In this document: positions 18,801-62,907 of the stretch, one piece after another
Numbering within the stretch: position 1 is the stretch's first letter
Layout of the letters: every line of letters starts with the position of its first letter
Virus record (IMG/VR): IMGVR_UViG_3300046703_000247
Location: 19,234 to 83,233 of that record
Reading direction: 5' to 3' (one strand)
Source of the DNA: a virus
DNA length: 64,000 nucleotides
Translations under genes and position numbers: made by a program
The notes under the pieces: generated by a model
Told to the model about the DNA's origin: nothing
What the model saw: only the letters and a program-made list of their open reading frames with translations
Database searches by the model: none

Positions 18801-21800
18801 GGGGAGAAACCGGAGGTTTCGCCTCCTGAAGCGCCGGCCCCAACAGTTGAGGAAGCCCTGGCTATCATCGAGAGAAAAGGCTCAGCCCATTGGGAAGACA
18901 CTACCATCAAGGTGGTTCCACACCCATCGGTTACCGGGATGGTCGACACCGATGGAACCAGCTTCTCAGTAGAAGTGACCCGGAATGGGGAGCGCAACAT
19001 CATCGAAGCCGCCCCTCTGTCCCTGGAAGATGCCCAGAAAAAAGCTGCCCGGATGCTGGTGGAACGCGCAAAACTTCCGCCACTCGGCAAAAAACAGAGC
19101 ATAATGGAGGCGGAGCAACCCAATGCCCCAGGTGGAATACAGCAGCCCGTTCGTTCAACTGGTGCTCGACCAGTGGAAGAACAACTTCCCGAAGGAAGCC
19201 GAGCGCCTGGAGAAGCAGGGAACGCTCCTCAAGTGGGCCGAGTACGCGACCAAGCGGGCGGGCGCGGTACACGAGCAGGCGCTGGCAAACGGAGCGAGCT
19301 ACACCCAGGCGGAGGATCTGTCCCTACCCGAGTGGGGCCAGCCACCGACGTTGAACGATCCCTCCCTCCCCGTTCCCGAGACGTAGCCAACAACCGCCAC
19401 GAGCACGACTTCCGCATTCCGGACCGGCGTGTCATTTCCGGATCCCCTGAAACCCGGGCGAAAGCCAACCTCGCAGCCATCCGCCTGTTGCGCGAAATCC
19501 AGCAAGACAACCGCGCCGCCACGGTCGAGGAGCAGGAGACCCTGGCGCGGTACGTCGGATGGGGCGCCGTTCCGCAGTTGTTCGCCGGCAACACCTCAGA
19601 GTGGAAGGCGCTCCAGAACGACCTGCGCAAGTCGTTGAGCGAAGAGGAGTACTCTCTCGCCCAGAATTCCACCAAGAACGCCCACTACACGGGAGATGAG
19701 GTGGTGGATGCCATGTGGGCCACGCTCGAGCGGATGGGCGCCACGCCGGGCATGAACTGGCTGGAGCCCGCGGTGGGAGTCGGGAACTTCTTCGGCCGGC
19801 AGCCGGAGGCCTTGCTCGCGGGTTCGCGACGAATCGGAATCGACAAGGATTCGCTTTCCGCACAGATTGCCACGCTGCTCTACCCGGACTCGGGCATCCA
19901 GAACCAGCCCTTCGAGGAAGCCGAACTCCCCAAGGACTACTTCGACGCCGCCATCTCAAACGTGCCCTTCGCCGATGTTAAGGTGCACGACCCTGAATTC
20001 CGCAACAAAATATACCTGAGATCGAGCGTTCACAACTACTTCTTTGCAAAGACTTTGGGCAATGTGAAGCCGGGCGGCATCGTGGCCTTCATCACTTCTC
20101 ACTACACCATGGACGCCTACGGCCAAGAGGCCAGGGCTTTCCGGAAGTGGATCGCTTCACAGGCCGATTTCCTCGGCGCCGTGCGGCTGCCCTCGAACGC
20201 CTTCATGCAGAGTTCGGGCACCCACGTCATCACCGACATCGTCTTCCTACAGAAGCGACTGCCCAACGCTGCGCCCGCCGGCGAGGATTGGGTGGAGACG
20301 GTGAACAAGACGCTCTCCGGGCAGTGGGGCGTGTATCCCGTAACCACCAACGCCTACTACAAGCGGCATCCCGAACACCTTCTGGGAGAGGAGAAGCTGA
20401 AACGCGGCCAGTTCTCAGACCATGATTACTTTGTGGAAGGGGAACTGACGCCGGCCGCCCTGAAGAAAGCCCTCTCCAAGATCCCCGGCCAGTTCCAGCA
20501 ATGGCAGACAGGGGCGACGGCCCCCCGGCGGATCGCCCTGCGGGAGATTCGCGCAGAATCCGACAAGGCCAAGCTCGGAGCCCTCTTCTTTGATGACAAG
20601 GGCGACCTGTTCCGCAAGACCAGCAAGGGATCCGCTGAGCCGATTCCCGTGAGTGCGGATGCCAAGCAGAAGATCAAGGGTCAGTTGGAATTGCGCAACG
20701 CCTACGCGGAGCTGCTCGAGCTCGAGCGCAAGGATGCCCCCGAGGCGGCGCTCGATAGCGCCCGCAAGCGGCTCAACCGGATGTACGACAAGTACGTCGC
20801 CGAGCACGGCCCCTTATCGAGCCGAAGCAACACGGAGCTGCTCAAGGGAGATCCGGACGCCCCGCACGTCGTCAGCCTGGAGCGCAAGTGGGACCCCAAG
20901 ACGAAGACCGCCGAGAAGTCCCCGATTTTCAAGCGCCGCATGCTCCAGCCGCCCAAGGCCCTGGAACACACCGCCGACGCCAAAGATGCTCTTTACGTCT
21001 CCCTGAATCAGACCGGGCGGATTGACTTCGAGCGCATGGAGAAGTTAACCGGCAAGGGAAGCACCCAACTCCAGAGCGAGTTGAAGGGCATCATCTACCA
21101 GGACCCGACCAGCCGCGAGTGGGAGATGGCCGACGAGTATCTCTCCGGAGCGGTGCGCACGAAGTTGCGCCAAGCCCAGGCCGTGGCCAAATTGGAGCCC
21201 GAGTTTGAGGAGAACGTCAAGGCGCTCGAACAGGTGCAGCCCGACGACATTCCGCCGGCACAGATCAGGGTCGCACTGGGCGCAACCTGGGTTCCGATCG
21301 ATATCTACACCGAGTTTGCAACGCACATTCTGAACAGCTCGACCGACACCCCGGTCCGCTACGTGGCGAACCACTGGCACGTGGATGAGCCCTACTACAG
21401 TTCCGCCCGGTCCAAGAGCCAGTGGGACACCGGCCGCATGAATGCCCACCAGATCCTGGAAGGCTCCCTCAACATGACGCGCCTCAAGGTCCACGACTGG
21501 GACAGCGATAAGAAGCGGGATGTTATCAACCAGCCGGAAACGGCCGCGGCGCAGGCCAAGCAGCAGGAGTTGCAGACCTACTTCGAAAGATGGCTTCTAT
21601 CTACCGAGGCCGCGCGCACGGACCAGATGGTGCGCCTCTACAACGATGCGAAAAACGACCTCCGCCTCCCGACCTTTGACGGCTCCCACCTGACCCTTCC
21701 GGAAATCGTTCGGGATCCGCAGATTGTGACGGGCGGCGATCTGGCACCCCACCAGAAGAATGCCGTTTGGCGCGGCATCAAGCAGCGCAATGTGCTCCTG

Positions 21801-24800
21801 GCCCACTGGGTAGGAACCGGCAAAACCTTCGAAGGCATCACCATCGGCATGGAGCTGAAGCGGCTGGGTCTCATCCAGCGGCCGATGTACGTGGTTCCGA
21901 ACGCCACCCTGGGCGGTTGGCAGTTGCAGTTCAACCAACTCTACCCGCAGAAGCGCGTCATTGTTTTCAGCGAGAAGGACCTGGAGAAGGAAAACCGGCG
22001 GGCCACTATCGCGCGCATCGCGGGCGGCGAGTGGGACGCGGTTGTCATGCCCGAGTCCAGTTTCCGGTTCATCCGCACCGGCGACGAGATCTTCAACCAG
22101 CATTTTCAGCGTCTCCAGGAAGAATTGGACACCTCCATCCAAGAGGCTGAGGGCGCCGGGATGGACACCCGGATGATTAAGCGCATGGAAAAGATGCGCG
22201 ACAAGCTGCTCACGGCCCTGCAGGATAAGCGCAACGCGGAGCGGCAGGATCAGACCATCATCTGGGAGCAGTTGGGGATCGATTGGCTGTTCGTGGACGA
22301 ATCCCACCACTACCGCAAGTTGGGGTTCTCAACCAAACAGCAGAACATCGCCGGCATCGATGTGAACGGCAACCAGATGACGTTCGACCTGCTCATGAAG
22401 ATGCGGCACGTCCAGACGACCGGGCGCGGAGTGGTCTTCGCCACGGGTACACCGATTGTCAACACCATTGGGGAAATGTACTCTCTGATGCGCTACCTGA
22501 TTGAGCCGGAAATGCAGGCGCGCGGCATCGGCCGCTTCGATGAATGGTCGGCCGACTACGCCCGGACGGTCCCCGTGTTCGAACCGAAGGTGGAGGGTGG
22601 CGGCTACCGGATGAAGGACCGCTTCGCCCGCATCGTCAACATCCCCGAGTTGGCGAACCTGTTCCGCTCCTTCGCCGATGTGGTCACCAATGACATGGTA
22701 GACCTAAAGATCCCGGGTTTGGCGGGAGGGGAACGCAAGAGCATCCTGACGGACTTGAGCGACGAGCAGACTCAATATCTGGAAGAAGATCTGCGACCCC
22801 GCGGGGCCGCTATTCGCCACAACCCCCGGGATGCCATGCCGGACAACATGCTGGCTGTCTATACCGACGCCGGCAAGATGGCATTGGACATCCGGACGGT
22901 AATGCCGCACGCCAAAGAGGACCCCGGCAGCCGGCTGAACAAAGCCGCCGAAATCATCTTCCGCGACTGGCAGGACAGCGCGAAGACGAAGGGCGTACAG
23001 GCCATATTCTGCGACTGGGGCAAGCCCAACAGCGCGCGCCCCCTTGCGGATCGCGGGCAGTTCTCGGTGTACGACGAGCTGATTCGAAAGCTGATTAAAA
23101 AAGGCATCCCGCGCGAGCAGATTGCCACTATCTATCAGGCGAAAGGGAAGGACCAGCGGGCCCGGCTCTTCCAGCAGGTGAACGAGGGGACCATCCGGAT
23201 CATCCTCGGTTCCACGAAGAAGCTCGGTGAAGGCGTAAACATTCAGGAGCGCCTATATTCCCTTCATCACCTGGACCTGCCGCACACGCCCTCGGAACTA
23301 GACCAGCGCGAAGGCCGCGCCCTGCGCCAAGGGAACACCAACCCCGACGTGCGGGTGTACTACTACATGACCCGGGGCTCACTCGACGAAATGAAGTTCG
23401 CCAACGTCCTGCGTAAGGCGAAGTTCATCCTGGCCATGATGCAGGGCAAGGCCACGGTACGCGAGGCCGACGACGTGGGCGGTATGATCCCCTCTCTTGA
23501 GATGTTCCAGGCGGCCACCTCGGGGGATCCGCGCGTGCTGAGGAAGATGGAGGTTGACGCCGAAGTAGCGCGCCTCGAGGCCATTCACTACGCCTGGCGG
23601 AATCAGCAATGGGACGAGCGGCGCCAGTTGGCGGACCTGCCTGGCAGAATCAGTCGCTTTGAAACTACCATCTCCAATTCCCGAAGTGACATCGCCCTGC
23701 GGGACGCGCACCTGCCGGGGGTGTGGTCGGTCCGCGGGCAGACCTATGAAGGCAAAACTCCGGAAGCGGCGAAGGCACTTGCCGAGTACTCCAACAGCAG
23801 GCGAAGGGAGCATGACGCGGATCTGAAAACGGAGATGGCCAAGGCTATAGCGGAAGGCGGTGAAGACGCCAAGAAGGTCCGCGCGCTACAGAATCGAGCC
23901 TTTACAGAAGCGGGGAAGCGCTTTCCTCCCGAGATCATCGCTGAATACGCCGGTTTCAAGATCCGGTTTGATCCCATTGATGGGGCAATGACCATCGTTG
24001 GCGAAGGGTCCGCATACGGGATGGAGCGGCAGGACACCGCGACAGGCACGCTCGCGAGCGCAGCCTACTTCATTCACCACCATTTTGAAAAGGCCATCAC
24101 CAGTGCCGAAGAGGACATTGCCCGCGCCAGGCGCGACGAGGAACAGTTGCAGATCTCTGTCGGAAAGTCCTGGCCCTATCAGAAGCAGTTCGACAACCTG
24201 GTTGCCGAGCAGGAGACCCTGACTCACGATTTGGGCGGCGATCACGGAGACCCCGGCGCCGCTCTGCTCGAGGATGGGGAGGAAATAGAAGACAAGCGGG
24301 TGGAAGCCGAGGAGACGGCAGAGTCTGGAGACGAGGCCCAGCCGGAGCAGCCGCACCCAACCACACCCAATCCACCTACGCCGGGCCGGCGGCCGGGAGC
24401 AGCTACGCAATCCCGCCGCTCCAGCCAGGCCGGCGCGGCCAGCCTCGATCTGCTCACCCTGGGAGCGCCCAAGTTCATCCAAGAGGATGTCGCCCCAGCC
24501 CTCGGCAGGGTCGCCCAGAACTTTGTGGCGGTCAAAAACGAGATCTTCACGATTATCGCCCCGGCCGCTCGCGGGCCCGCCGCCAAACAAACTGCCCTCT
24601 CCGTGCGCTACCGGGCGGCCGAGTTGGCCCAGAAGACGGACCGTGCCCTGGCCGCCCTCAAGGAAACCCGCCGCTACTTCGACTCGCTGCCCGAGTGGAA
24701 CCGGTTGGAGTTCATGGACCGCATCGAAAACGGCCAGCAGCAGATCTATCCACAGGAGGACGCGATTGCTGAGGTCTTTCGCGAGATGCTCGACGGCCGC

Positions 24801-49848: not shown

Positions 49849-51105
49849 CTACCCACTGGCGCCCCGCCGGCGCCGTTTCGCCCACACGTCGGCCGCATCC
49901 TTGGCTAGATTGATCGCAAACCCCCACCGTGTGAATTTTTCTACCCTCGCCAGCACGCAATCGTGTAGGATCGCGAGCGGCGCCCCACCTTTGGCCTCCC
50001 AGATTTTCTTGGCTATCGCCTCGGGCAGGGTACCGCCGACCAACCGCACTGGGACCAGGGCCTCGAGCATCTCGGTCATGGCCTCGATCGTCTCGGCGGC
50101 GGCCGGTTCCGTCTCATTTGACGGCTCAGCCTGGTGAGCTCTCAAAACCACCTGATACGCAACCCGCGAGAAGCCGAGTGGCCGCAGGGCCGCCGCAATC
50201 TGGGAGGCGTACTCGTCTTCGAGCCAACTCCTGGTCGGCTTGTTCGGCACGGCCACCTGGACCAGGCCATTCTCGACCGCGATGAATTCCGTCCGGGCGA
50301 TCCAGTTCTGGTAGCCCTCGGGGCTCAACTTCGCTGCCAGCGCCTCCTTGACGCGCTCCCAGACGTTCAGAGCCCTTCCATCCTTCGAAACAGTGTTTAT
50401 TGCAGCAATTGGGGTTACGGATGAATTACCCGAACTCCTGATGGGGTAATTCGGATCTCCCTCGGCGCTTCCTGGGGGCTTTGAGGGGATTGTCTTCGCC
50501 GGCTTGCGGACCTCTTCGAACTTGACGCTGCCGTTGGCGAGGAGTTTGACATATTTGGCTGGGCACTCTGACCCATCCCCCACGCACTTCTGACCCTTGG
50601 CTATGGGTCGGCGCCGTGAGCCCTCAGCGAGCTCGTCCAGGTGCAGCAGCTCCTCAACCTCATCGCTGTTGTGTGGGTTGGGGTTGCCACTGCGGGTGTT
50701 CGGCAGGTCGGGGAGTTCCCTAAGTCGCTGGGGATTCACCCTGTAGGCCATCGCCGGGCGACCGCGAGAACCTGTGGACGGACTAGGGGCGGCTTCTAAA
50801 ATGCCGAGCTCGACCGCTTGGGTGAAGGCCCTCTCTACAGCCTTCACTGTGGTATCACAGAGTTCAGCGAGCTTGGTGTGGACAGGGACGCAAAACGGAT
50901 CCGTTCGGTTCTTGACGTACCGTGGGTCCCAACACGTCCGGGCGAGAGTCTGACCGACAACCTCGCGTAGCAGACCCCTTCCCAACTTGCGTGGACCTAA
51001 AGTGAAGTACTCCAGGGGGATGGCCGCCCAGACGCCCCAGGAGGCCTCCGTGGGGGCTGGATTGCCGCGGGGTGGTCGGGGCCTCACCTGCGCTGCCGCT
51101 GCCAT
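49849..51105 (-). CDS. Replication-initiator-like protein: winged helix plus DnaA domain I
   Basis: A 418-residue protein. The N-terminal part (about 20-110) looks like a phage replisome-organiser winged helix: AAIPLEYFTLGPRKLGRG, then VHTKLAELCDTTVKAVERAF. Residues about 243-308 match DnaA domain I: VWERVKEALAAKLSPEGYQN, WIARTEFIA, LVQVAVPNKPTRSWLEDEYA. In DnaA this domain recruits helicase (DnaB) and partner proteins. The protein lacks the DnaA AAA+ and DNA-binding domains. It probably binds an origin and borrows the host helicase-loading interaction. Confidence 0.7.
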   Translation of the reverse strand: MAAAAQVRPRPPRGNPAPTEASWGVWAAIPLEYFTLGPRKLGRGLLREVVGQTLARTCWDPRYVKNRTDPFCVPVHTKLAELCDTTVKAVERAFTQAVELGILEAAPSPSTGSRGRPAMAYRVNPQRLRELPDLPNTRSGNPNPHNSDEVEELLHLDELAEGSRRRPIAKGQKCVGDGSECPAKYVKLLANGSVKFEEVRKPAKTIPSKPPGSAEGDPNYPIRSSGNSSVTPIAAINTVSKDGRALNVWERVKEALAAKLSPEGYQNWIARTEFIAVENGLVQVAVPNKPTRSWLEDEYASQIAAALRPLGFSRVAYQVVLRAHQAEPSNETEPAAAETIEAMTEMLEALVPVRLVGGTLPEAIAKKIWEAKGGAPLAILHDCVLARVEKFTRWGFAINLAKDAADVWAKRRRRGASG

Positions 51106-51476: not shown

Positions 51477-51501
51477 CTCTTTTTTTCAGGAAGCCCCTGT
51501 A

Positions 51502-51517
51502 GTGTATAGGCTTACAC
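51502..51517. promoter_or_regulatory. Operator-like palindrome
   Basis: GTGTA-TAGGCT-TACAC, 16 bases, about 26 bases upstream of the leftward -35. It is a candidate repressor site. Confidence 0.35.
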
Positions 51518-51841
51518 CTAATTTCCCTATCAGCAGTTGGGGTAATCCAGGGGGAGAACAAACAGCGAACGACCCCCAACAGGAGATGGGGTTTCTGGCA
51601 CCGTATCCTTATTGCGTTAAACACTACTTAGAGTACGTCTTTGAGAGTAGGTAGGTAGGTAGAAGAGACCCACCCACCGACTCCCTCGAAGCACTCCCAG
51701 CCGGACACAGCACAGAGAACGAACGGCTGAATTCCGGTCAGGTGCTGCTTGGGTGCTCGCCCCCGGCTCGGGTGCCCTCCCGCCTGCCCTCCGCAGCCCT
51801 GCACCCGGTGTGGAAGTTCTTTCACACTTGGCAGATTTGAA

Positions 51842-51951
51842 ACTCCACGGATTGGGTCGGGTTGTGGGTGAAACTTGCTGCAGATCCAGCCTGTCAGCCG
51901 CTTGCAATCCGAGTAAACGGTTGTAAACTAAAGACCGTGGAGTCTTTTTTT
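51842..51951 (+). promoter_or_regulatory. Attenuator-like alternative hairpins
   Basis: ACTCCACGG (51842-51850) can pair with CCGTGGAGT (51935-51943). The second arm also takes part in a terminator hairpin, AAAGAC/GTCTTT (51930-51935 and 51942-51947), followed by a T-run to 51951. The two pairings exclude each other, as in attenuators. It lies 71 bases before the sigma-like gene. Confidence 0.5.
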
Positions 51952-52022
51952 GGCTCGATAGACCATTCCTGCGGTGAGGTTTAGCTGCAGCGTCTTGCCA
52001 TCGGCTCCCAGGGATCCCAACA

Positions 52023-52673
52023 ATGCCCAGCGGCAACTGGGGGCGGCGGGGATCAGGCGCCAGTAAGAGCGCTACCCTCCTCCGCTCCAAGACTTCGAGC
52101 AGATGGGCTGCCAAACGGTCCATCTTCCTCCGCAACCGCATCATCGAGTCGGAACTGGGACTAGTAGAACCCATAGCCCGGCACATTCTGGGTTCCCTCC
52201 CGCCTTCGTTTGAGCTGGATGATCTAGTCTCAGCCGGGCACCTGGGTCTGATCGAAGCCGCCGGCCGGTTCATCTCGAGCGGCAGCCGGAGCCCACAGGC
52301 ACGCTTCCGCAGTTTCGCCCGCTACCGCATACGCGGAGCTATCCTCGACTCGATCCGCCGCGGGCGTTATCGCGACGCCACCCATGGGCCGATCGAGGAG
52401 GCCGCCGCCAGGCCCGGGGAAGACATGGAGGCAGACCTCGCCCATAAGGAAGCGCTGGAGGCCGTGCAGCAAGCCCTGAAGTCACTCTCGCGAGCAGAGG
52501 CTCGCCTGGTGAGCCTGCACTACGCCCGCGGGCTGCCGCTCTACCGGGTTGGGGAAGCGCTCAACATCCCGCCGGGGGATGCCTCAATTTTGCGACAGCA
52601 AACCCTCAACCACCTGCGCGCCTCCCTCGCTCAAACCCCCGCCCCAGAGCCCGAAGCGGAAGTTCTTCTGTAG
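52023..52673 (+). CDS. Sigma-28 (FliA)-like sigma factor
   Basis: A 216-residue protein. Region 2 at about 45-115: IARHILGSLPPSFELDDLVS, AGHLGLIEAAGRF, ARFRSFARYRIRGAILDSIR. The ELDDLVSAGHLGLIEAAxRF signature is that of FliA-type factors. Region 4 at about 155-200: ALKSLSRAEARLVSLHYARG, then PLYRVGEALNIPPGDASILR. There is no region 1.1. Phage sigma factors redirect host RNA polymerase to middle or late genes; the target promoters were not identified. It is first in the rightward unit. Confidence 0.85.
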   Translation: MPSGNWGRRGSGASKSATLLRSKTSSRWAAKRSIFLRNRIIESELGLVEPIARHILGSLPPSFELDDLVSAGHLGLIEAAGRFISSGSRSPQARFRSFARYRIRGAILDSIRRGRYRDATHGPIEEAAARPGEDMEADLAHKEALEAVQQALKSLSRAEARLVSLHYARGLPLYRVGEALNIPPGDASILRQQTLNHLRASLAQTPAPEPEAEVLL

Positions 52674-52703
52674 ATTTTCCAGGAAGTGGCGACTTGTATA
52701 TGA

Positions 52704-53141
52704 GTGACAAAAGCAGTACCGATAGATCGATCGAAAACTCCGAAACCGGCCGAGCGCGCGAAACTCGTTGATGAGTACGGCGCGCTCCAGGCCTCCCTCG
52801 TGCCGAAGGTAGCCCGCCTGAAGGAACTGATCGAACAGTTCCGCGACTGGGCGGAAGCCGAGAAGAAGGCCTGCGAGGCCGCGCTCTTCGAAGGCCACCG
52901 CTACGCGGTTCCGGTGACCGAGCGGGCCAAGAAGCGCAAGATCAAATCCCTCCAGAAACTCTTCGACCTGCTCGGGCAGCAGGTGTTTCTGGATGCTTGC
53001 AGTATGCGGATCGACACCGCCGAGAAGCACCTGAAGCCCGCGGAGCGGACCCGGATGATCGAGGACCTGGGCAACGTCGGCGTTCGCACGGTGGAAGACG
53101 CCATCCTACGCCCGACGTCGACCAGAAAAGCCGCAGCCTGA
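52704..53141 (+). CDS. Phage protein of unknown function (Gam-like layout)
   Basis: A 145-residue GTG-start protein. Helical N-terminus: LVDEYGALQASLVPKVARLK, ELIEQFRDWAEAEKKAC, then EGHRYAVPVTERAKKRKI and a C-terminal helical part with STAR-type basic tail. The helix, then G-x-x-Y-x-V strand, then helix order recalls Mu Gam-like nuclease inhibitors, but the match is weak. Position between sigma and NusG genes suggests early or middle expression. Confidence 0.5.
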   Translation: MTKAVPIDRSKTPKPAERAKLVDEYGALQASLVPKVARLKELIEQFRDWAEAEKKACEAALFEGHRYAVPVTERAKKRKIKSLQKLFDLLGQQVFLDACSMRIDTAEKHLKPAERTRMIEDLGNVGVRTVEDAILRPTSTRKAAA

Positions 53142-53159
53142 ACCGGAAAGGGTTGAAGT

Positions 53160-53705
53160 GTGGAGAGTGCCTGTGTGGGACAAGGGGGCGAAGCCTGTCG
53201 CTGGTACGCCCTGCAGGTCCGATCACAGTTCGAGAGGAAAGTCCGCGATGCGCTGAACCAGGCTCAGATCGAACCGTACCTGCCCACCTACCAGACCCGG
53301 GCGCGCTGGAGCGACCGAACCAAGACGGTGGAGCGGATTCTGTTCCCCGGCTACGTTTTCGGCCGCTTCGAACTCGGCCGGCGCCGCACGGCGATCGCGC
53401 TTACCGGTGTGGTGAGGATTCTGGGCGTTGGGGCACAGCCAATTGCCATCGAGGATGCCGAGATTGTGAATTTGCAGCGCGTCATCGAAGCCGGTCTCGA
53501 CCCACTTCCGGCGGCCTCCCTGGCCGCGGGGCAGCGGGTCCGGGTAGTGGAAGGTCCGTTGGCCGGGGTGGAGGGCGCCATTGTGCGTCTGAAGGGCGTC
53601 CTGCGCATCGTGGTGGCCATCTCGCTGCTCAACCGGGCGGTGAGCGCCGAGGTGGACGTCGACTCCGTCGAGCCGATCCTTGCCACCCAGCGCGCCGCCG
53701 CGTAG
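53160..53705 (+). CDS. NusG/RfaH-like transcription factor
   Basis: A 181-residue protein. The NGN domain at about 13-100 reads RWYALQVRSQFERKVRDALN, then EPYLPTYQTRARWSDRTK and LFPGYVFGRFE. The KOW domain at about 120-175 contains GQRVRVVEGPLAGVEGAIVR. This is a specialised NusG paralogue that would bind RNA polymerase and influence pausing or termination. AAAGGG lies 7 bases before GTG 53160. It precedes the terminase genes, so it may ensure readthrough of the late operon. Confidence 0.85.
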   Translation: MESACVGQGGEACRWYALQVRSQFERKVRDALNQAQIEPYLPTYQTRARWSDRTKTVERILFPGYVFGRFELGRRRTAIALTGVVRILGVGAQPIAIEDAEIVNLQRVIEAGLDPLPAASLAAGQRVRVVEGPLAGVEGAIVRLKGVLRIVVAISLLNRAVSAEVDVDSVEPILATQRAAA

Positions 53706-53706
53706 T

Positions 53707-54213
53707 ATGGCCAAAGCCCAGAAACCAGTAGCCCGTAGAATACATCGTAAGTTGCAACCCGAGGTGGTCGCCGCCCCGAAAAGCCGGATCCGCCCGGTCA
53801 AGATCCGGCAGGCCGCATTTCTGGCCGCCTATGCGGAGATGGCGAGCGTCAGTTGGGCCGCCAAAGCCTCCCGAATTTCCCGCGACTGCCACTATCAATG
53901 GCTTGCCAACGATCCGGAATACGTCAAGAAATGGGAAGCCGTCCAGCCACGGGCTCTACAGCTACTGTTAGACGAAGTCTGGCGCCGCGCGCGCGTGGGA
54001 GTCGAAGAGCCGGTCTTCTACCAGGGCGAGATCTGCGGCACGGTTCAGAAGTACTCCGATGGCCTAGCACAATCACTATTGCGCGCCTTAGACCCGCGCT
54101 TCCGAGAAAAGACCGAACTCTCCGGGCCGGGCGGCGGGCCTGTGCAGATTGACATCGCCGAACGCCTCAACGCGGCCCGTAAGAGGATAGCCGCAGAACC
54201 CCATGCGGAATGA
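53707..54213 (+). CDS. Terminase small subunit
   Basis: 168 residues from ATG 53707, right after the NusG stop. The HTH part at about 40-75 reads FLAAYAEMASVSWAAKASRI, SRDCHYQWLANDPEYVKKW. A middle helix follows, and then YSDGLAQSLLRALDPRFREK. This order is usual in terminase small subunits, which recognise the packaging site. Coupled by ATGA to the large subunit. Confidence 0.8.
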   Translation: MAKAQKPVARRIHRKLQPEVVAAPKSRIRPVKIRQAAFLAAYAEMASVSWAAKASRISRDCHYQWLANDPEYVKKWEAVQPRALQLLLDEVWRRARVGVEEPVFYQGEICGTVQKYSDGLAQSLLRALDPRFREKTELSGPGGGPVQIDIAERLNAARKRIAAEPHAE

Positions 54214-55700
54214 GCACTGCCACCGAACTCGACAACGAACTGGCCGACGAAGTCGGCAAGTTTTATGCCGACCCCTTCGGCTTTGTACGGTTTGCGTACC
54301 CATGGGGGGAACCGGGCCCGCTCAGCAACTATCAGGGTCCGGACGTCTGGCAGGAGAAATACCTTCGGCAGGTAGGGGAGGAAATACTCAAGCGCAGATT
54401 CGACGGTCTGAACAGCGTCGATCCTCTGCGGGAAGCTACCGCTTCCGGACACGGAATCGGCAAGAGTACGGTGGTCGCATGGCTGGTCAACTGGATCATG
54501 TCCACCCGGCCGAACGCGCAGGGGACCGTCACCGCCAACACCTTCCCCCAGTTGCGGACCAAGACCTGGGCGGCTATTCAAAAATGGAACAGGCTCTCCA
54601 TCACGCAGCGCTGGTTCACGACCAGTGCCAGCCGCATGTACCAGCGGGACCATCCGGCCACCTGGTTCTGTTCGCCTCAGACGTGCCGCGAGGAGAACTC
54701 CGAGGCTTTTGCCGGTCAGCACGCGGCGTCCTCCACCAGCTTCTACATTTTCGACGAGGCCTCGGCGGTTCCGGACATCATCTTCGAGGTGGCCGAGGGG
54801 GGGATGACAGACGGCGAGCCCATGATGTTCGCCTTTGGCAACCCGACCAGGAACACAGGCAAATTCTTCCGCGCCACATTCGGACCGGAGCGGGGCCGCT
54901 GGATACACCGATCCATCGATTCCCGCGAATGCGCCCTTCCCAACAAGTCTCTAATTCAGGAATGGATTGCCGACTACGGCGAGGATTCCGACTTTGTGCG
55001 GGTCCGCGTCCGCGGCCTTCCACCCCGAGCTTCCGAGATTCAGTTCATCGATCTGGACCGGATCTATGCAGCGCAGAAGAAGGAGGCTCAGTCGCTTCCG
55101 GACGACCCCCTCATCGCCGGCGTGGATGTCAGCGGCGGCGGATCTGCCTGGAACGTGGTGCGCTTTCGAAGAGGCAAGGATGCCAGAACCCTTCCGCCGG
55201 TGCGTATTGCCGGATCCCGGGCGGACCGGGAGGCGCTGATTGCCATGCTGGCCGCACTTCTCCAGGACAAGAGCCCAGAGAAGCAAATCCAGGTAATGTT
55301 TATCGACTCCGCCTTCGGCTCCCCGATTGTGGAGCGCCTCCACGTTCTGGGCAACAAAAACGTGGTCGAGGTCAACTTCGGCGGCCGGTCTCCGGACATT
55401 CACCAACTCAACCTGCGGGCCTATATGTGGAACCAGGTGAAAGAATGGCTGCCCAGCGGGTCAATCGATCCCAACGATGAGCAGCTCGAGATAGACCTCA
55501 GTGGGCCCGGATTTCACTTCAACAAGACCAACCAGTTGGTTTTGGAACCCAAAGAACAAATGCTGAAGCGCGGGTTGAGTTCGCCTGACGACGGAGACGC
55601 CTTGGCCCTGACCTTCGCGCAGGCAGTAGCCCCAGCTCCCAAGAAGCCCAAGCCCTCATCCAGTCACGGGTATACCGGCCCCGGCTCCTGGATGACATAG
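54210..55700 (+). CDS. Terminase large subunit
   Basis: A 496-residue packaging ATPase-nuclease. Walker A-like ATASGHGIGKST at about 77-88, Walker B FYIFDEAS near 193, and FGNPTRNTGKF as the coupling motif near 220. The RNase H-like nuclease has GVDVSGGG near 307, MFIDSAFG near 368 and SPDDGDALALTFA near 465. It moves DNA into the procapsid and cuts it. Length and motif order are typical. Confidence 0.9.
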   Translation: MSTATELDNELADEVGKFYADPFGFVRFAYPWGEPGPLSNYQGPDVWQEKYLRQVGEEILKRRFDGLNSVDPLREATASGHGIGKSTVVAWLVNWIMSTRPNAQGTVTANTFPQLRTKTWAAIQKWNRLSITQRWFTTSASRMYQRDHPATWFCSPQTCREENSEAFAGQHAASSTSFYIFDEASAVPDIIFEVAEGGMTDGEPMMFAFGNPTRNTGKFFRATFGPERGRWIHRSIDSRECALPNKSLIQEWIADYGEDSDFVRVRVRGLPPRASEIQFIDLDRIYAAQKKEAQSLPDDPLIAGVDVSGGGSAWNVVRFRRGKDARTLPPVRIAGSRADREALIAMLAALLQDKSPEKQIQVMFIDSAFGSPIVERLHVLGNKNVVEVNFGGRSPDIHQLNLRAYMWNQVKEWLPSGSIDPNDEQLEIDLSGPGFHFNKTNQLVLEPKEQMLKRGLSSPDDGDALALTFAQAVAPAPKKPKPSSSHGYTGPGSWMT

Positions 55701-55722
55701 CGAATTTCAGAAGGAGACTTAC

Positions 55723-55977
55723 ATGGACATGCAACCGACCACAGCGATAGGAACCCGCGGCAGCTCCGTGAAGCCCGGCGAGGTCGACAGCCTTTCGATT
55801 CAGCGCGCCGACAACGGTTTCACGGTCTCGATTCAGACCAAGCAGAAGCCGCTCAAGAAAGGCGAGAACCGCGACTGGGACGCCGGCCGCGAAAATGAGG
55901 TTTACACGAGCGTGGAAAGCCTCTGCGCCCGGATTCGGACAGCCTTCGCCGGGGTGAAGCTCGAGAAATCAGCGTAG
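55723..55977 (+). CDS. Small phage protein, unknown function
   Basis: An 84-residue protein with AAGGAG before ATG 55723. The middle SIQRADNGFTVSIQTKQKPL and NEVYTSVESLCARIRTAF form a beta hairpin and helix. This type is often found between terminase and portal in phages. The function is unknown. Confidence 0.6.
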   Translation: MDMQPTTAIGTRGSSVKPGEVDSLSIQRADNGFTVSIQTKQKPLKKGENRDWDAGRENEVYTSVESLCARIRTAFAGVKLEKSA

Positions 55978-55995
55978 TCCATTTCCGGGTAGCCG

Positions 55996-57021
55996 ATGGT
56001 TGCCAAGAAGCCAAAAGCCGAGTCCGTTTCCACTTGCGGAGCCGCTGCGGCCGCCGCGGTGCGCCAGCTCGACCCCACGGTGCTCGGCAAGCGCTCCACA
56101 GCGCTGGCAGTAGGTCTCGCCGCCTCAGTTATCGGGCAGGCGGGCGCCACCCAGGAGGTCATGAAGGCCTGGGTCAAGGCGAACTCCGGGCTTTCCAATC
56201 CACAGCGGCCCTTGGTCAGCCTGCTCTTCACTGGTCCGTCCGGGGTGGGGAAGACGCTCACAGTGGAGGTTCTCGCTGAACTGATTCACGGCAGCCGGAA
56301 GAATATGCTCAGAATCGACTGCGCCGAATTCCAACTCCAGCACGAGATGGCAAAACTTATCGGCGCGCCTCCGGGCTATCTGGGCCACCGGGAGACCCAG
56401 CCGATGCTGACGCAACAGAAGTTACAGATGGCGACCAGTGAGAAATCCCACATCTGCCTGGTGCTCTTCGACGAGATTGAAAAGGCCAGCGATTCACTCT
56501 GGACCCTGTTGCTTGGGATTCTCGACAAGGCGACGCTGAACCTGGGAGACAACACCCGGGTGGATTTTTCGAACTGCATGATCTTTCTGAGCAGCAATCT
56601 CGGCAGCCGGGCGATTGAATCGCTACTTCGACCGAGCCTCGGATTCGCTCCAGCGACCGGTGATGGCATCGACGGCGCCGGCCGCGCGGCGGTGCGGAAA
56701 CACTTCACCGCCGAATTCCGCAACCGGCTGGACCAGGTTGTCGTGTTCAAGCCCCTCAGTCAGGCCGACATCGGGAGAATTTTCGACATCGAGATTGGCC
56801 GCCTTCCCGAACCCCTGAGTGTGTTGCCGAGCGACGCCGCGCGGGAGCGACTCATCAAGGATGGTTACCAGCCCGAGTTCGGGGCCCGGCACCTGGAGCG
56901 CGCAATAGAAGCCCACGTGATCCTGCCGATTGCGCACCTGATCGACAGCGGGCAACTCGAACCGAATGAACCGGTCCGGATTGACTGGAACGGACATCGT
57001 TTCGATTACTACAGAGTTTAA
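55996..57021 (+). CDS. Clp/Hsp100 D2-type AAA+ ATPase
   Basis: A 341-residue protein with one AAA+ domain of ClpA/ClpB D2 type. VIGQAGATQEVMKAWVK lies near 45 and Walker A GPSGVGKT near 80. The pore loop is GAPPGYLGH, in which the usual Gly-Tyr-Val-Gly has become Gly-Tyr-Leu-Gly. Walker B CLVLFDEIEKA lies near 158 and the Arg finger AEFRNRLDQ near 245. The D2-small domain has YQPEFGARHLERAIE. The N-domain and D1 are absent. It is unusual beside the terminase; it could unfold or remodel capsid proteins or host targets. Confidence 0.85.
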   Translation: MVAKKPKAESVSTCGAAAAAAVRQLDPTVLGKRSTALAVGLAASVIGQAGATQEVMKAWVKANSGLSNPQRPLVSLLFTGPSGVGKTLTVEVLAELIHGSRKNMLRIDCAEFQLQHEMAKLIGAPPGYLGHRETQPMLTQQKLQMATSEKSHICLVLFDEIEKASDSLWTLLLGILDKATLNLGDNTRVDFSNCMIFLSSNLGSRAIESLLRPSLGFAPATGDGIDGAGRAAVRKHFTAEFRNRLDQVVVFKPLSQADIGRIFDIEIGRLPEPLSVLPSDAARERLIKDGYQPEFGARHLERAIEAHVILPIAHLIDSGQLEPNEPVRIDWNGHRFDYYRV

Positions 57022-57025
57022 TTCG

Positions 57026-57078
57026 TAGCCCCCAGGGGCGAAACCCTGCGGTTTCTCCCCCGGTACCCCTTCTTCCCT
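57026..57078 (-). repeat. Palindromic interspersed element, copy 21
   Basis: Reverse copy in the gap after the Clp gene. Plus-strand arms are GGGGCGAAACCC and GGTTTCTCCCC, followed by CCTTCTTCCCTGC. Confidence 0.9.
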
Positions 57079-57110
57079 GCTTTTTAGAACCAACACAGGA
57101 GACACACACC

Positions 57111-57341
57111 ATGAACGCATACGAAATTCGTCTGGAAGTTCTCAGGATTGCAAAGGCTGTTGTGCAGGAAAACGCCGTCGAATGGGTCACTACAGACAAT
57201 GGGGTACCTTGCGCCAAGCAAAAGCCCTATCAGGTCGGTGAGGTGCTTCAAACAGCAAAGACGATGTACGGGTTCGTCGAAGGAGAGCCCGATGCCTTAC
57301 AACTGGGCGCGGCTGCCCGGAGGGCCAAGATCGTCGCATAG
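57111..57341 (+). CDS. Small phage protein, unknown function
   Basis: A 76-residue protein with AGGAG 10 bases before ATG 57111. MNAYEIRLEVLRIAKAVVQE, then YQVGEVLQTAKTMYGFVEGE; two helices with a short loop. The start and layout resemble small proteins of known phage head clusters, without an assigned function. Confidence 0.55.
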   Translation: MNAYEIRLEVLRIAKAVVQENAVEWVTTDNGVPCAKQKPYQVGEVLQTAKTMYGFVEGEPDALQLGAAARRAKIVA

Positions 57342-57349
57342 ATGTCACG

Positions 57350-57407
57350 AGGGAAAAAGTGGGGCTGGGAGAAGAAACCGTCGGTTTCGTCTCCCAGAGT
57401 CCCAGCC
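57350..57407 (+). repeat. Palindromic interspersed element, copy 22
   Basis: Forward copy between two small genes. Leader GAGGGAAAAAGTGGGG, arms TGGGAGAAGAAACC and GGTTTCGTCTCCCA, tail GAGTCCCAGCC. Both stems are fully paired except the central A-G. Confidence 0.9.
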
Positions 57408-57441
57408 AACAAGCACCTCCGACCGAAACAAGGAACCAGCC

Positions 57442-57642
57442 ATGCCCGCTAAGTCGATTGCCATGCAGCAGGCCGCCGCGATCGCGCTGCACCATCCCTC
57501 AAAGCTCAGTAAGAAGAACCGCTCGCTCAAGCGCATGAGCCCCGAGCAGCTTCGGGAATTCGCTTCTACTCCCCATGCAGGGTTGCCCCAACACAGTGTT
57601 CCCCTCACCCAAATCGGACATCGCGCCGCCAAGCGCAAGTAA
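57442..57642 (+). CDS. DUF3008-like small protein
   Basis: A 66-residue protein. MPAKSIAMQQAAAIALHHPS, then LKRMSPEQLREFASTPHAGL. The MPAKS...QQxAAxxAL start and the MSxxxLxEFA...GLP end are the marks of DUF3008, common in bacteria and phages, with no known function. AAGGAA precedes ATG 57442. Confidence 0.6.
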   Translation: MPAKSIAMQQAAAIALHHPSKLSKKNRSLKRMSPEQLREFASTPHAGLPQHSVPLTQIGHRAAKRK

Positions 57643-58135
57643 CCCGCCGGCCAACTTTGCAGATCAGTTGGCGCAGTTGTTCGCGACACACGGCGCGATC
57701 TACCGGCGCCTGGCCTATCGGTATCTCGACTCGAACGACGATGCCGAGGATGCCGTGCAGAACGCTTTTCTGCGGGCCATCGAGCGCCACCACCAGTTCC
57801 GCGGGCAGTCGCTGCTCTCGGGATGGGTCATGCGCATCCTTCAGCGCGAGTGTCTGGATCAGCTTCGGCTGCGCGCCCGGCGGCCCGCGGAGGAGTTGGA
57901 TGAGCGCCACGCCGGCGCGGAAGAGTTTCCCATGGGCGACTTACTTCTCAATCACTGGCGCTCGGCCGTCCTGCAGCACCTGTTCCGGCTGACCGCCGGC
58001 GAGCGGCGGTTTCTCGGAAGAGTACTTGACGACGAGGACCTCAATATGAGCCTCCCTGGCAACAAGAGCCTGCGCCACCGGGTGCTTACGAAGCTACGGT
58101 TCGCCGTGCAGCGCAAGACCCAATGCCGCAATTGA
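57575..58135 (+). CDS. ECF-sigma-like protein
   Basis: A 186-residue protein. Region 2 at about 38-95: YRRLAYRYLDSNDDAEDAVQ, NAFLRAIERHHQFRGQSL, WVMRILQRECLDQLR. The DAEDAVQxxFLRA pattern is that of ECF sigma factors. Region 4 is weak (about 125-175; LTAGERRFLGRVLDDEDLN) and may not bind a -35. The first 20 or so residues overlap the upstream gene and have no ribosome site, so the true start may be later. It is a second sigma-type gene in the genome. Confidence 0.65.
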   Translation: MQGCPNTVFPSPKSDIAPPSASNPPANFADQLAQLFATHGAIYRRLAYRYLDSNDDAEDAVQNAFLRAIERHHQFRGQSLLSGWVMRILQRECLDQLRLRARRPAEELDERHAGAEEFPMGDLLLNHWRSAVLQHLFRLTAGERRFLGRVLDDEDLNMSLPGNKSLRHRVLTKLRFAVQRKTQCRN

Positions 58136-58153
58136 TTACCTCCGGATTCGACC

Positions 58154-60337
58154 ATGGTCACCGTAACTAGCGTCTCGAAAGAACCCGAAACTCCCGACTG
58201 GGGCCAGCGCGACGAGTTTATCCGCACTGCCCTGCGGCGTTTTCATCTGGCTCGCGACGCGGAGCGCGACATCCGGGACAAGGCGCTCGATGATCTGCGC
58301 TTCTTCCAGGGGGATCAGTGGCCGGCAAGCATCGTCGCCGAGCGCAATGCGGATGGGCGCCCGTGTTTGACCATCAACCGGCTGCCGGAGTTGGCGAGCC
58401 AGCCCCTCAACCAGCAACGGCAAGGGAGACCGCAGATTCAGGTCAACCCGCGCGGCGGCGGCGCCACGCTCGACACCGCTCACATCATCCAGGGGCTGAC
58501 GCGCCACATCGAGGTGGCGAGCCAGGCTGAGGCGGCCTACGATTGGGCGTTTCAGTACGCGGTGATCTGTGGCTTTGGCTACTTCCAGTACGCCACCGAG
58601 TGGGCCGACGAAGCCGACGAACAAAGCTGGGACCTCGAAATCCGCGTCAAGCCGGTTTTGAATCCCTTCGCGGTCTACTTCGATCCCTCCTGCCAGGACC
58701 GGCTGTATCGCGACGCGAAGTGGGCCTTTGTGGTGGAGGATCTCCTCCCGGAGGACTACAAAGCCAAGTACAAGGGCTCCCAAATGGCCAGCCTCTCCGA
58801 GTTCCGCTCCATCGGGGACGGGGAGAAGGAGTGGTTTCGGGACGGCATGATCCGCGTCGCCCAGTACTGGACCGTGGAATTTGACACACACACACTGGTA
58901 CAACTCGCCGACGGAAGAACCATCCCCGAAAACGACCTGGACAAGTATCCCGACGCCACCATTGCCCAACGCAACGGCGAACCCCTGCTCCGCGAAGTCA
59001 GAATTCCCAAAGTGCGCTCCGCGGTAATCAACGCGCGCGAGATTCTGACCGGGAGCAAAGAGCAAGCACCCTTCGGAAAGCTGTTTCCAGGGAAACGAAT
59101 CCCTATCATCCCCGTGCTCGGCGAAGAGTTAATCGTAGACGGCAAGCGGACGTTGAGCGGCATCGTGCGCTATGCCCAAGACGCGCAACGCCAGTACAAC
59201 TACATGCGCACGGCGCTCACTGAGCAGATCGGCCTGTCTCCCAAGGCGCCCTACATCGCCGCCATCGGCCAAATCGAAGGCTTTGAGGAAATCTGGAACA
59301 ACGCGAACCGGAAGAATTACTCCGTCCTCCCCTACAACGCCAAGGACGTCAACGGAACCCTACTGCCAGCTCCCCAGCGGAACTTCGGAGAGCCGCCGAT
59401 CGCTGCCATCGCCGCCGCCGTGGCGCAGGCCGACCAGGATCTGAAGTCGACCACCAGAATTCACGAGCCGATGATCGGCACCATGGGTCCGGAACAGTCC
59501 GGAAGGGCGATTATCGCCCGGCAAAACCAAGGAAATCTGGCAACATTCGCCTATGTCGACAACTTGAGCCAGTCCATTATGCGCCTCGGCGAGGACCTGG
59601 TCGCCATCATGCCCGCGGTGTACGACCGCCCGGGCCGGGTGGTGCGCATCGTCAAGCCGGATCAGACGCACGAAACGGTCACCCTGAACCAGCCTTTCGA
59701 GAAAAACCCCGAGAAGCAGCCCGGAGTGATGGAGTTCTACGACCTCACGACCGGCACCTACGACATCACCATCAGCGTCGGGCCGGGGTACGAAAGCAAG
59801 CGCCAGGAGTTTGTGGCCTCCGTGCTCGACCTGGTCCGCGCGGCGCCCCAGATCGCGCAACTCGTGATGGATCTGGTGGTGCGGCACATGGACTGGCCGG
59901 GAGCGACCGAGATCGCCGACCGGCTGAAGAAGGCCCTGCCGCCTGGCTTACAGGAAGAGGGTGACGCTGCCGGTCCCGGGCAGGTTCCACCGGCCTTCGC
60001 CGCCCAGATGGAGCAGTTGATGGAGCAGCACGCCGCGTTGGTCAAGCAGTTGAACGAGGCGACCAGTGTGATTGAGAGCCGGCGCATGGAGATGGAAAGC
60101 CGGGAGCGCATCGCGGAAGTGCAGGCCCGGACCCAACTTCTGGTAGCCGAGCTGAAGAACCAGAGTGCGGAAAGCCAAACGCTGTTGCGCGAGAGCCTGG
60201 CGCGGATCGACCAGAGGCTGGACCAGTTGAGCGGCAATCAGCCGATTCAAGGTTCGAATTCTCAGCAGCCGCAGCCTGCTGGGGCGCCACCTACGGTTGC
60301 TCCCCCACAAGCCCCCTCATCCCTTCAAGGCGGTTGA
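58154..60337 (+). CDS. Portal protein, P22-type
   Basis: A 727-residue protein. Features of the P22-type portal family: FFQGDQWP near 50, RPCLTINRLPELASQPLNQQ near 70, FQYAVICGFGYFQYATEW near 132, NPFAVYFDPSCQD near 168, and a long C-terminal helix/coiled-coil barrel (about 600-690). It forms the 12-subunit channel for DNA packaging and ejection. The C-terminal residues after about 700 (QPQPAGAPPTVAPPQAPSSL) come from a palindromic element. Confidence 0.85.
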   Translation: MVTVTSVSKEPETPDWGQRDEFIRTALRRFHLARDAERDIRDKALDDLRFFQGDQWPASIVAERNADGRPCLTINRLPELASQPLNQQRQGRPQIQVNPRGGGATLDTAHIIQGLTRHIEVASQAEAAYDWAFQYAVICGFGYFQYATEWADEADEQSWDLEIRVKPVLNPFAVYFDPSCQDRLYRDAKWAFVVEDLLPEDYKAKYKGSQMASLSEFRSIGDGEKEWFRDGMIRVAQYWTVEFDTHTLVQLADGRTIPENDLDKYPDATIAQRNGEPLLREVRIPKVRSAVINAREILTGSKEQAPFGKLFPGKRIPIIPVLGEELIVDGKRTLSGIVRYAQDAQRQYNYMRTALTEQIGLSPKAPYIAAIGQIEGFEEIWNNANRKNYSVLPYNAKDVNGTLLPAPQRNFGEPPIAAIAAAVAQADQDLKSTTRIHEPMIGTMGPEQSGRAIIARQNQGNLATFAYVDNLSQSIMRLGEDLVAIMPAVYDRPGRVVRIVKPDQTHETVTLNQPFEKNPEKQPGVMEFYDLTTGTYDITISVGPGYESKRQEFVASVLDLVRAAPQIAQLVMDLVVRHMDWPGATEIADRLKKALPPGLQEEGDAAGPGQVPPAFAAQMEQLMEQHAALVKQLNEATSVIESRRMEMESRERIAEVQARTQLLVAELKNQSAESQTLLRESLARIDQRLDQLSGNQPIQGSNSQQPQPAGAPPTVAPPQAPSSLQGG
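60267..60327 (-). repeat. Palindromic interspersed element, copy 23
   Basis: Reverse copy that encodes the last residues of the portal protein. Plus-strand arms are TGGGGCGCCACC and GGTTGCTCCCCCA. It faces forward copy 24. Confidence 0.9.
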
Positions 60338-60395
60338 GGGAAGAAAAAGGTCTTAGGGAAAAGAAACCGTCCGGTTTCGTTTCCCTGAAGCAGCA
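60336..60395 (+). repeat. Palindromic interspersed element, copy 24
   Basis: Forward copy that begins with the portal stop codon (TGA within TTGAGGGAAG). Core arms are GGGAAAAGAAACCG and CGGTTTCGTTTCCC. Together with copy 23 it forms a reverse-forward pair like that at 5696-5820. Confidence 0.9.
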
Positions 60396-60472
60396 GTAAA
60401 ACCAACAAGTTCTGAACGAACGCCCAGCGGTCGGCGTCATGGCCGCGCACCATCCCCCGAACAAGGAGCAAC

Positions 60473-61630
60473 ATGATCACCCTAACGTCAGCTTCGGACA
60501 CCCCCGAACAGGTAAAGGAAGCACTGGAAAGCCGCGGCTACTCGACCGAGATCGTCGAGGCGAACCAGATTCCGCAAGCCCCGGAGGAAACCGACAAGAA
60601 GACCCCGCCGGAAACCCCGGTCGAAGACAAGGAAGACAAGAAATCCCCCGCGCCCGCGGAGCCGCCGGCTGACAAGCCGGATGAGGCCGCAGGCAAACCC
60701 GCCGATGCCTCGGGAGCAACGGACGAAAAACAGGAAGCAGGGAAACCCAAACCGAAAAAGGGTATTGAAGAGCGCTTCTCCAAACTGACTCTCGCGCGCA
60801 AGGAAGCCGAACGCGAAACAGCCAAGGTCACACGTCAACGGGACGAGCTGGAACTAAAGCTCGCGGAACTGGAAGCCCAGACCAAACCTCCCGCCGACAA
60901 ACCCGCTGAATCCGCGCCGGCCAAACCCGCCGCAGACGCCAAACCTGACGCCGAACCGGTACTCGCTGACTTCGAAAGTTACGAGCAGTGGACGGTAAAG
61001 CACCAGGAATGGCTCACCGCCCAGAAGCTCTCGCCACTCCAGGCCGAGATCAAGGCCCTCCAGGACAAGATCAAAGCCAAGGAAGACGCCGACGCCCAGC
61101 ACCAGGCCGAGCAAGCCGCCGAAGAAGCGCGCAAGCCGCTGGCCGAGCGCTGGAAAGCCGGCGAGGCGGAGTTGAAGGCGGTCCATGCGGACTACGACGA
61201 AGTCATGGAAGCAAGCGAGGAGGCCGGACTACAGGCGTCTCCCGCCATGCACCAGGAGATCTTCGAAAGCGAGTTCGGGGTCAAGGTCAACTTCTATCTG
61301 GCCACGCATCCGGAGGAGTGCAAACGGATCTTCGAGGCCACCTCGGTGGGTGAAAAGCCCACTGCCGAAGAAGTAGGCCGAGTCACCCGTCTCGCCGCCC
61401 GCGAGATCGGGCGCATCGAAGCCCTGATAACCCAGCAACCCGCTCCGGCCAAAGAGCCGGCGGCCAAGTCCCCAGCTCCTGTAACACCGAAACCCAAGCC
61501 CAGCGCAGCGCCAACGCCCGTTGAAACCGTGGGAACCCGCTCAGTCGTGCCTACCGGCGAAGAATACCGCGACGACATGACCCAAGCGGAATTCCGCGAG
61601 TGGAAAGCCCGCAACGGCGGACGGCGTTAG
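60473..61630 (+). CDS. Scaffolding-like protein
   Basis: A 385-residue protein with AAGGAG before ATG 60473. Highly charged, Ala/Pro/Lys/Glu-rich, with coiled coil at about 95-140 (KEAERETAKVTRQRDELELK) and 190-225. A semi-globular helical unit near 240-310 has EIFESEFGVKVNFYLATHPE. The C-terminal EYRDDMTQAEFREWKARNGG is a short helix typical of scaffold-to-coat interaction. Position between portal and coat matches the P22 order portal-scaffold-coat. Confidence 0.75.
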   Translation: MITLTSASDTPEQVKEALESRGYSTEIVEANQIPQAPEETDKKTPPETPVEDKEDKKSPAPAEPPADKPDEAAGKPADASGATDEKQEAGKPKPKKGIEERFSKLTLARKEAERETAKVTRQRDELELKLAELEAQTKPPADKPAESAPAKPAADAKPDAEPVLADFESYEQWTVKHQEWLTAQKLSPLQAEIKALQDKIKAKEDADAQHQAEQAAEEARKPLAERWKAGEAELKAVHADYDEVMEASEEAGLQASPAMHQEIFESEFGVKVNFYLATHPEECKRIFEATSVGEKPTAEEVGRVTRLAAREIGRIEALITQQPAPAKEPAAKSPAPVTPKPKPSAAPTPVETVGTRSVVPTGEEYRDDMTQAEFREWKARNGGRR

Positions 61631-61692
61631 ACGCGCAGGGCTCCTGAGCCGCCCGCCAAGACGGCGCGGCGCGCACACAGAGAAGGTACCCC

Positions 61693-62907
61693 ATGAATAG
61701 CTATTTGACGATCTCGAAGATCACCCATGAGTGTCTCGAGGTCCTCCGCAACAACCTCGTGATGGCGCGTTACGTCAATCGCGAGTACAACAAGGAGTTT
61801 GCCGTCAAGGGCGCAAAGATTGGCCAGCCGGTCTCCGTCCGCAAACCGCCGCGCTACGTCGTCAAAAACGGCGCCACGATGCTGCCGCAGGATTACGTCG
61901 ACGAGTCCGTGACTGTTTCACTGGACCGCCAGAAGCACGTGGGCCTGGTTTTCACCTCCGCCGACCGGCTGTTGAGCCTGGACGACTTTTCGAAGCGCGT
62001 CATTGAGCCGGCCATCGCGCCGCTCGCCAACCAGATCGACTACGACCTGCTCCAGCTCTACAAGCAGGTTCCCAACTTCGTAGGCACACCGGGAGTTGTG
62101 CCGACCGCTCACCTGACCTATCTGAACGCCGGGGTGGACCTCACCAACGAGGCCACTCCCAAGACCATGCGCTACTGCGTGGTGGGAGCCGAGATGCAGG
62201 CCACCATTGTCAACGCGGGCCTGACCTTCCAAAACCCGACCGGCAACATCTCGAAGCAGTTCGAGGACGGCATCATGGGCCGCGCGCTCGGCTTCGACTG
62301 GGCCGACGATCAGAACGTCGGCGGCCACACAGTTGGCGCCATCGGCGGAACGCCCGCAGTGGACGGCGCGCAGATTGGCGCCTCGATTTTGACGAAGAAC
62401 TGGAGCGCGCTCGCCACACTCAAGGAAGGCGACAAAATCACCATCGCGGGGGTCTACGCGGTCAATCCCCAGTCCCGGCAATCCACCGGGAAACTCCGCA
62501 AATTCACCGTTACCGCCGACGTAGCGGCTACGGGTGGCGGGGCGGCCACAGTCACAATCTCTCCCGCCATCGTCATCTCCGGCTCGCAGCAGAACTGCAC
62601 GGCCGGTGCAGCCGCCAACGCCCTGATCTCCGTTTGGGGCAACGTGGCTGGCGAGTTTGACCACATCGCCAGCGCGGTCGGCCCGGTGGGTCTGGCTTTC
62701 CATCGCAACGCCTTCGCTCTGGTCACCGCCGATCTGCCCCTTCCCGAGAAGAAGGACGCCAGCCGGGTCTCCGATCCGGATCTGGGCATCTCGCTCCGGC
62801 TCTGGAACGACAGCGATATCCGGACCGACGAGTTCATCACCAGAGTCGACGTGCTCTACGGCGTCGCCGCGCTGAGGCCCGAGCTGGCCTGCGTGATTGC
62901 CAGCTAG
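61693..62907 (+). CDS. Major capsid protein, P22 coat-like
   Basis: A 404-residue protein with AAGG about 8 bases before ATG 61693. MNSYLTISKITHECLEVLRN, NLVMARYVNREYNKEFAV, GQPVSVRKPPRYVV and VSLDRQKHVGLVFTSADRL are landmarks of the P22 gp5-type coat protein family. An Ig/I-domain-like insertion at about 225-310 is rich in Gly and Thr. It is the main component of the HK97-fold shell. Confidence 0.85.
   Translation: MNSYLTISKITHECLEVLRNNLVMARYVNREYNKEFAVKGAKIGQPVSVRKPPRYVVKNGATMLPQDYVDESVTVSLDRQKHVGLVFTSADRLLSLDDFSKRVIEPAIAPLANQIDYDLLQLYKQVPNFVGTPGVVPTAHLTYLNAGVDLTNEATPKTMRYCVVGAEMQATIVNAGLTFQNPTGNISKQFEDGIMGRALGFDWADDQNVGGHTVGAIGGTPAVDGAQIGASILTKNWSALATLKEGDKITIAGVYAVNPQSRQSTGKLRKFTVTADVAATGGGAATVTISPAIVISGSQQNCTAGAAANALISVWGNVAGEFDHIASAVGPVGLAFHRNAFALVTADLPLPEKKDASRVSDPDLGISLRLWNDSDIRTDEFITRVDVLYGVAALRPELACVIAS

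Follow-up and report, generated by a model that had tools for sequence, protein, structure and literature searches.

A FliA-like sigma factor and a specialised NusG paralogue precede the terminase genes of an uncultivated virus and may form a late transcription switch

Among phage late antiterminators, the well-described ones resemble lambda Q or are small phage proteins, Xp10 p7 for example. Of the specialised paralogues of the elongation factor NusG, UpxY exerts its effect in the leader of the operon that encodes it (PMC7819879), and the genes for both UpxY and TaA lie inside the long operons that they activate (PMC7593976, PMC7819879). In RfaH, loss of the Rho-contact loop has been linked to lost Rho binding, and rfaH-like genes have been noted on prophages (PMC7593976). 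Here we describe a phage operon in which a paralogue of this kind lies between a FliA-like sigma factor gene and the terminase genes, and compare it with these systems and with related loci.

The locus is part of a 64,000-nt stretch, hereafter the window, which corresponds to positions 19,234–83,233 of the 83,233-bp uncultivated virus record IMGVR_UViG_3300046703_000247. All genomes compared are uncultivated contigs and fragments, and the start codons of several genes are uncertain. Gene calling gave a rightward run from 52023 to 62907, extending past the portal gene, in which neighbouring genes are separated by −4 to 233 nt once a short, spurious leftward call is disregarded. The order is FliA-like sigma factor, 145-aa protein, NusG paralogue, terminase small and large subunits, 84-aa protein, ClpA/B-like ATPase, small ORFs, ECF-like sigma factor and portal-like protein. 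A first-pass annotation had placed a FliA-type factor, a NusG paralogue and an ECF-like factor together in a rightward late region. All three genes were recovered there with scores far above chance, and they share a single rightward operon with terminase and portal, which we call late on the basis of its terminase and portal content. The opposite block runs leftward and ends in a divergent replication-initiator-like gene that forms the left border of the cassette (49849..51105, minus strand; Pfam DnaA_N, 51.8 bits); a comparable leftward ORF was seen by eye ahead of the sigma gene in the related contig L030.

The packaging genes, all on the plus strand, were assigned by profile searches. The terminase small subunit (53680..54213, start possibly 53707) matches PHROG 4044 (2.3e-29), and the large subunit (54210..55700) matches PHROG 2 (8e-31) and has 13 relatives at 49–54% identity. 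Between terminase and portal sits a single-domain ATPase that resembles the second AAA domain of Clp/HSP100 proteins (ClpA/ClpB D2-like; 55996..57021; PHROG 4871, 8.5e-73; Pfam AAA_2 and ClpB_D2-small above cut-offs). The portal-like protein (58154..60337), the next gene of the operon after the ECF-like factor, was assigned from its location behind terminase rather than from a match to a named portal family; most of the contigs L012–L024, and L025 too, have homologues after terminase, and L030 has a similar ORF there. The 145-aa protein between sigma and NusG (52704..53141, plus strand) was defined by position and weak similarity, its slot being filled by weakly similar proteins (29%) in L025 and L026, while in L002 a Mu Gam-like protein occupies the slot ahead of NusG.

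The first gene of the operon (52023..52673, plus strand) encodes a 216-aa protein in which Pfam, NCBIfam and the predicted structure identify sigma regions 2 and 4, the two regions that define the sigma-70 superfamily, without region 3. Pfam Sigma70_r2 scored 34 bits (cut-off 24) and region 4 scored 23.8 (cut-off 24.1), and the NCBIfam sigma70-ECF superfamily model scored 68.6 (cut-off 42.9). FliA_WhiG (TIGR02479) was the best subfamily, at 86.7 bits, under its cut-off of 189.6. When a profile of the phage copies was compared with E. coli FliA, about 45 FliA residues (about 125–170) had no match, and the predicted structure runs from region 2, which ends at residue 112, through a short linker (113–132) to a complete four-helix region 4 with a pLDDT of about 88–96. 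Foldseek matches were FliA, WhiG and other sigma factors. Homology begins at about residue 37, which leaves the start codon uncertain. The phage protein is thus like FliA/WhiG in that its region 2 best matches FliA and its region 4 is complete, but it differs from that family in lacking region 3, in scoring under the family cut-off and in its length of about 200 aa; the WhiG of 7lq4 (198 aa) can likewise be aligned with no gap at region 3. Given the region-2 likeness and a score below the curated cut-off, we refer to it as FliA-like rather than as a member of FliA/WhiG.

The NusG paralogue (53160..53705, plus strand) has NGN and KOW domains and was classified as UpxY/RfaH type from Pfam, NCBIfam and PHROG matches and from its position in a tree. 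It scored 63.9 bits against Pfam NusG (cut-off 22.2) and matched PHROG 6386, ‘transcription antiterminator’ (5.6e-27). Residues 15–168 scored 110.3 bits with the UpxY model NF033644, above the curated cut-off of 100 by which UpxY is recognised, while scores were below cut-off for RfaH (68.3 vs. 144.5 bits), LoaP (67.7 vs. 125) and housekeeping NusG (56.5 vs. 135.7). The Rho-contact loop I164-F165-G166 is replaced by LLN. In a maximum-likelihood tree, the phage copies grouped with exopolysaccharide-operon paralogues of Acidobacteriota (support 98/91), several of which adjoin wza-like genes, apart from E. coli NusG and RfaH. Acidobacteriota genomes often carry NusG paralogues. End branches in this tree are deep (roughly 0.6–2.5 changes per column), and a topology that unites all sigma-linked phage NusG copies in one clade was not rejected (p-AU 0.47; 0.66 when L002 is included). 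As judged from sequence, the protein is a member of the specialised UpxY-like branch that has lost the Rho-contact residue.

Like UpxY of Bacteroides capsule operons and the Acidobacteriota exopolysaccharide paralogues, the phage protein combines NGN and KOW domains, passes the UpxY cut-off and is encoded in a long operon, on which it presumably acts; in contrast to them, it lies in a terminase/portal operon behind a phage sigma gene, and no upxZ-type partner was identified. RfaH is likewise a specialised paralogue with a replaced Rho contact (LIN in RfaH, LLN in the phage), but the two are 23% identical and no ops site was found. LoaP shares with it the association with long operons, but a LoaP-type leader hairpin was not found in a non-exhaustive search. 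NusG of Sinorhizobium phage phi3LM21 (ATE84713) is also annotated upstream of the terminase small and large subunits; however, it is 29% identical and distant in the tree, and no sigma factor appears among the annotated neighbours shown.

IMG/VR was searched with NusG and sigma alignments, followed by profile searches of the loci and family searches on whole contigs. A FliA-like sigma gene followed by NusG on one strand was found in at least nine further, distantly related contigs (L025, L026, L030, L032, L061, L062, L063, L066 and L067), with terminase downstream on the same strand in 8 of the 9; none was detected in L026. The whole order, from replication gene through sigma, NusG, terminase, small ORF and ECF-like sigma to portal-like gene, is kept in L030, an 87.8-kb contig whose sigma, NusG and ECF-like proteins are 41%, 50% and 34% identical to those of the window. 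More generally, both genes are present in 22 records that include several unrelated NusG lineages, and in 20 of these NusG shares the strand of terminase and lies 1–6 kb upstream of it. Random placement would give 2.8 of 22, and a count of 20 was not reached in any of two million simulations, uniform placement being a crude null because phage regulators cluster. Taking one record per lineage gave 9 of 11 vs. 1.0 expected; lineages were delimited by visual inspection of the tree, in some cases at nodes with weak support, and contigs share ancestry, so the placement p-value is indicative only.

The cassette is not simply inherited along with one terminase. Neither NusG nor sigma was seen in the 13 contigs with a 49–54% identical terminase, few of which have long upstream flanks. 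A search for prophages with this terminase, made in 396 genomes from the phylum to which G017 belongs, gave remote terminases only, and no cassette was seen in the short flanks. NusG genes without a nearby sigma gene occur in L002, L027, L028 and L031. Of four sigma-only contigs with a detected terminase (L060, L070, L078 and L092), three have sigma 2–6 kb upstream of it, which makes such contigs unfit as a negative control. We found no report of the sigma-NusG-terminase order in the literature searched, which takes in few subscription journals; this absence is weak evidence of novelty.

We consider it probable, with some reservation, that these genes constitute a phage-encoded late switch in which sigma initiates transcription and NusG keeps polymerase processive. 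As the product of the first gene of the rightward operon, the FliA-like factor would turn host RNA polymerase towards phage promoters. The NusG paralogue would then load on elongating polymerase in the late leader and, along the whole of the long packaging and structural operon, keep it processive in the face of pauses, Rho and/or terminators, filling the role of lambda Q by a UpxY/RfaH mechanism; the ECF-like factor further down may serve as a second-tier factor. Two-tier control by lambda Q and by Caulobacter GafY/GafZ (PMC11150451) would share this logic of initiation plus antitermination before packaging and structural genes, but no sequence relation is shown and the phage would use a sigma factor for initiation and a NusG paralogue for elongation. 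Because no promoter or loading site was found, we infer the biochemistry of the switch, that is, polymerase binding, antitermination, timing and promoter specificity of the cassette factors. A broader proposal, to which we give about an even chance, is that phages have, on several independent occasions, taken up NusG paralogues as late-operon antiterminators equivalent in function to Q, and that one lineage has fixed them, paired with a region-3-less FliA-like sigma, as a two-factor late switch ahead of terminase.

The late promoter and any loading site would be expected in the noncoding leader or divergent region ahead of the sigma gene (51477..52022, plus strand), recognised as a 582-nt gap in gene calling. 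In relatives, the leaders that precede sigma or NusG had no more k-mers in common than Markov-resampled controls, and no promoter, ops-like site or leader hairpin was found to be shared among them. With at most 5 mismatches, the FliA-type promoter consensus occurred once ahead of the rightward genes vs. 1.3 expected, and in an unbiased dyad search of the same regions the dyads exceeding controls came from a dispersed hairpin element described below. Weak terminator-like hairpins with a T-run are present in the leader of the window, at 51945 and further up, and the L025 leader has a strong one; none was seen in the eight others that were searched. Four CTGAACT-type palindromes surround the divergent replication/sigma region of L030 (7283–8587) and are possible repressor operators.

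The second sigma gene (57575..58135, plus strand) encodes an ECF-like protein with an intact region 2 (Sigma70_r2, 51.7 bits; cut-off 24), as expected of ECF factors, and a region 4 that appears degenerate. Its first 68 nt overlap a conserved 66-aa ORF (57442..57642, plus strand) that resembles a 70-aa ORF at the equivalent place in L030. In keeping with the weak region 4 reported in the first-pass annotation, no Pfam region-4 model matched, and the predicted helices (121–136, 141–151 and 161–184) leave out the first helix of the region-4 HTH in a model of low confidence (mean pLDDT 55). That helix appears to be missing in both homologues, the L030 protein also having a shortened region 4. It is possible, although we hold this somewhat less probable than its opposite, that the protein is no stand-alone promoter factor but an appropriation or anti-host factor, or one dependent on a co-activator. 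Such a role would be compatible with the late switch; the low model confidence counts against it, as do structural matches that, although non-significant, were led by ordinary ECF factors.

Two further accounts of the cassette were weighed against the late switch. NusG might displace host NusG on phage DNA generally and block Rho silencing, with no specific late loading site. Silencing of xenogenes by Rho is countered by RfaH-type paralogues (PMC7819879, PMC7593976), the F165 position is L or M in all aligned phage copies, and the leaders searched yielded no specific loading site. We nevertheless regard this anti-Rho role as unlikely, as the studied specialised paralogues do use a loading site and the gene lies consistently right upstream of terminase, not among early genes, which points to a late, operon-linked role. 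Still less probable is that the two sigma genes and NusG are unrelated cargo or act on host operons such as exopolysaccharide clusters. The nearest cellular NusG relative found (41%) does stand at the head of a wza/wzc-type operon, but the recurrent order in many phages, combined with deep divergence, argues for a maintained phage function.

The dispersed hairpins had been proposed as pausing or antitermination signals read by this NusG, a role that we now consider very improbable. The element is an imperfect palindrome in which an A.G mismatch is conserved and the loop varies, with about 30 copies in the whole record (28 by pattern, 15 plus and 13 minus; 31 profile hits). Rfam gave no match. 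LoaP uses a leader RNA hairpin (PMC12691694), and outside a giant ORF the plus copies lie mostly 40–70 nt ahead of rightward genes, and the element supplies the excess upstream dyads; some minus copies lie just after stop codons. However, no copies were found in the other sigma/NusG loci fetched (flanks of 8–20 kb), nor the exact core in five genomes with related NusG genes, and 16 of 17 other element-bearing virus records, including ones of 45, 55 and 58 kb, show no NusG domain; the elements thus do not track NusG. The loop is not of the UNCG type, and the mixed orientation, which the first-pass annotation had itself held against an exclusive signalling role, was confirmed. Eight copies within a 5786-aa ORF (9822–27182) are translated as proline-rich or charged linkers, which recalls Rickettsia palindromic elements. 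The elements look like mobile palindromic insertions. An inverted pair (57023..57079, minus; 57349..57400, plus; both by pattern extraction) flanks a 76-aa ORF (57111–57341) that was not seen in syntenic L030 in the interval from the ATPase region to the 70-aa ORF, and the ORF with its elements (57040–57395) looks like an inserted cassette. One element also occurs in L148, a 4,987-bp contig with a terminase near that of the window (3e-184). Of the layered takeover of host polymerase proposed with these signals, the hairpin half is not supported; the takeover itself gains indirect support from sigma/NusG linkage upstream of terminase in other phages and from the ECF-like gene in place in L030.

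The recurring sigma-NusG order suggests a widespread, little-noticed means by which phages turn on late gene expression and carry it to completion. If the late switch is real, a sigma factor and a specialised NusG heading a packaging operon would be a new class of phage late control, the evolution of NusG paralogues would be tied to phages, and a NusG gene just upstream of terminase would be a simple genomic marker. The loading of NusG paralogues in phyla such as Acidobacteriota also becomes testable.
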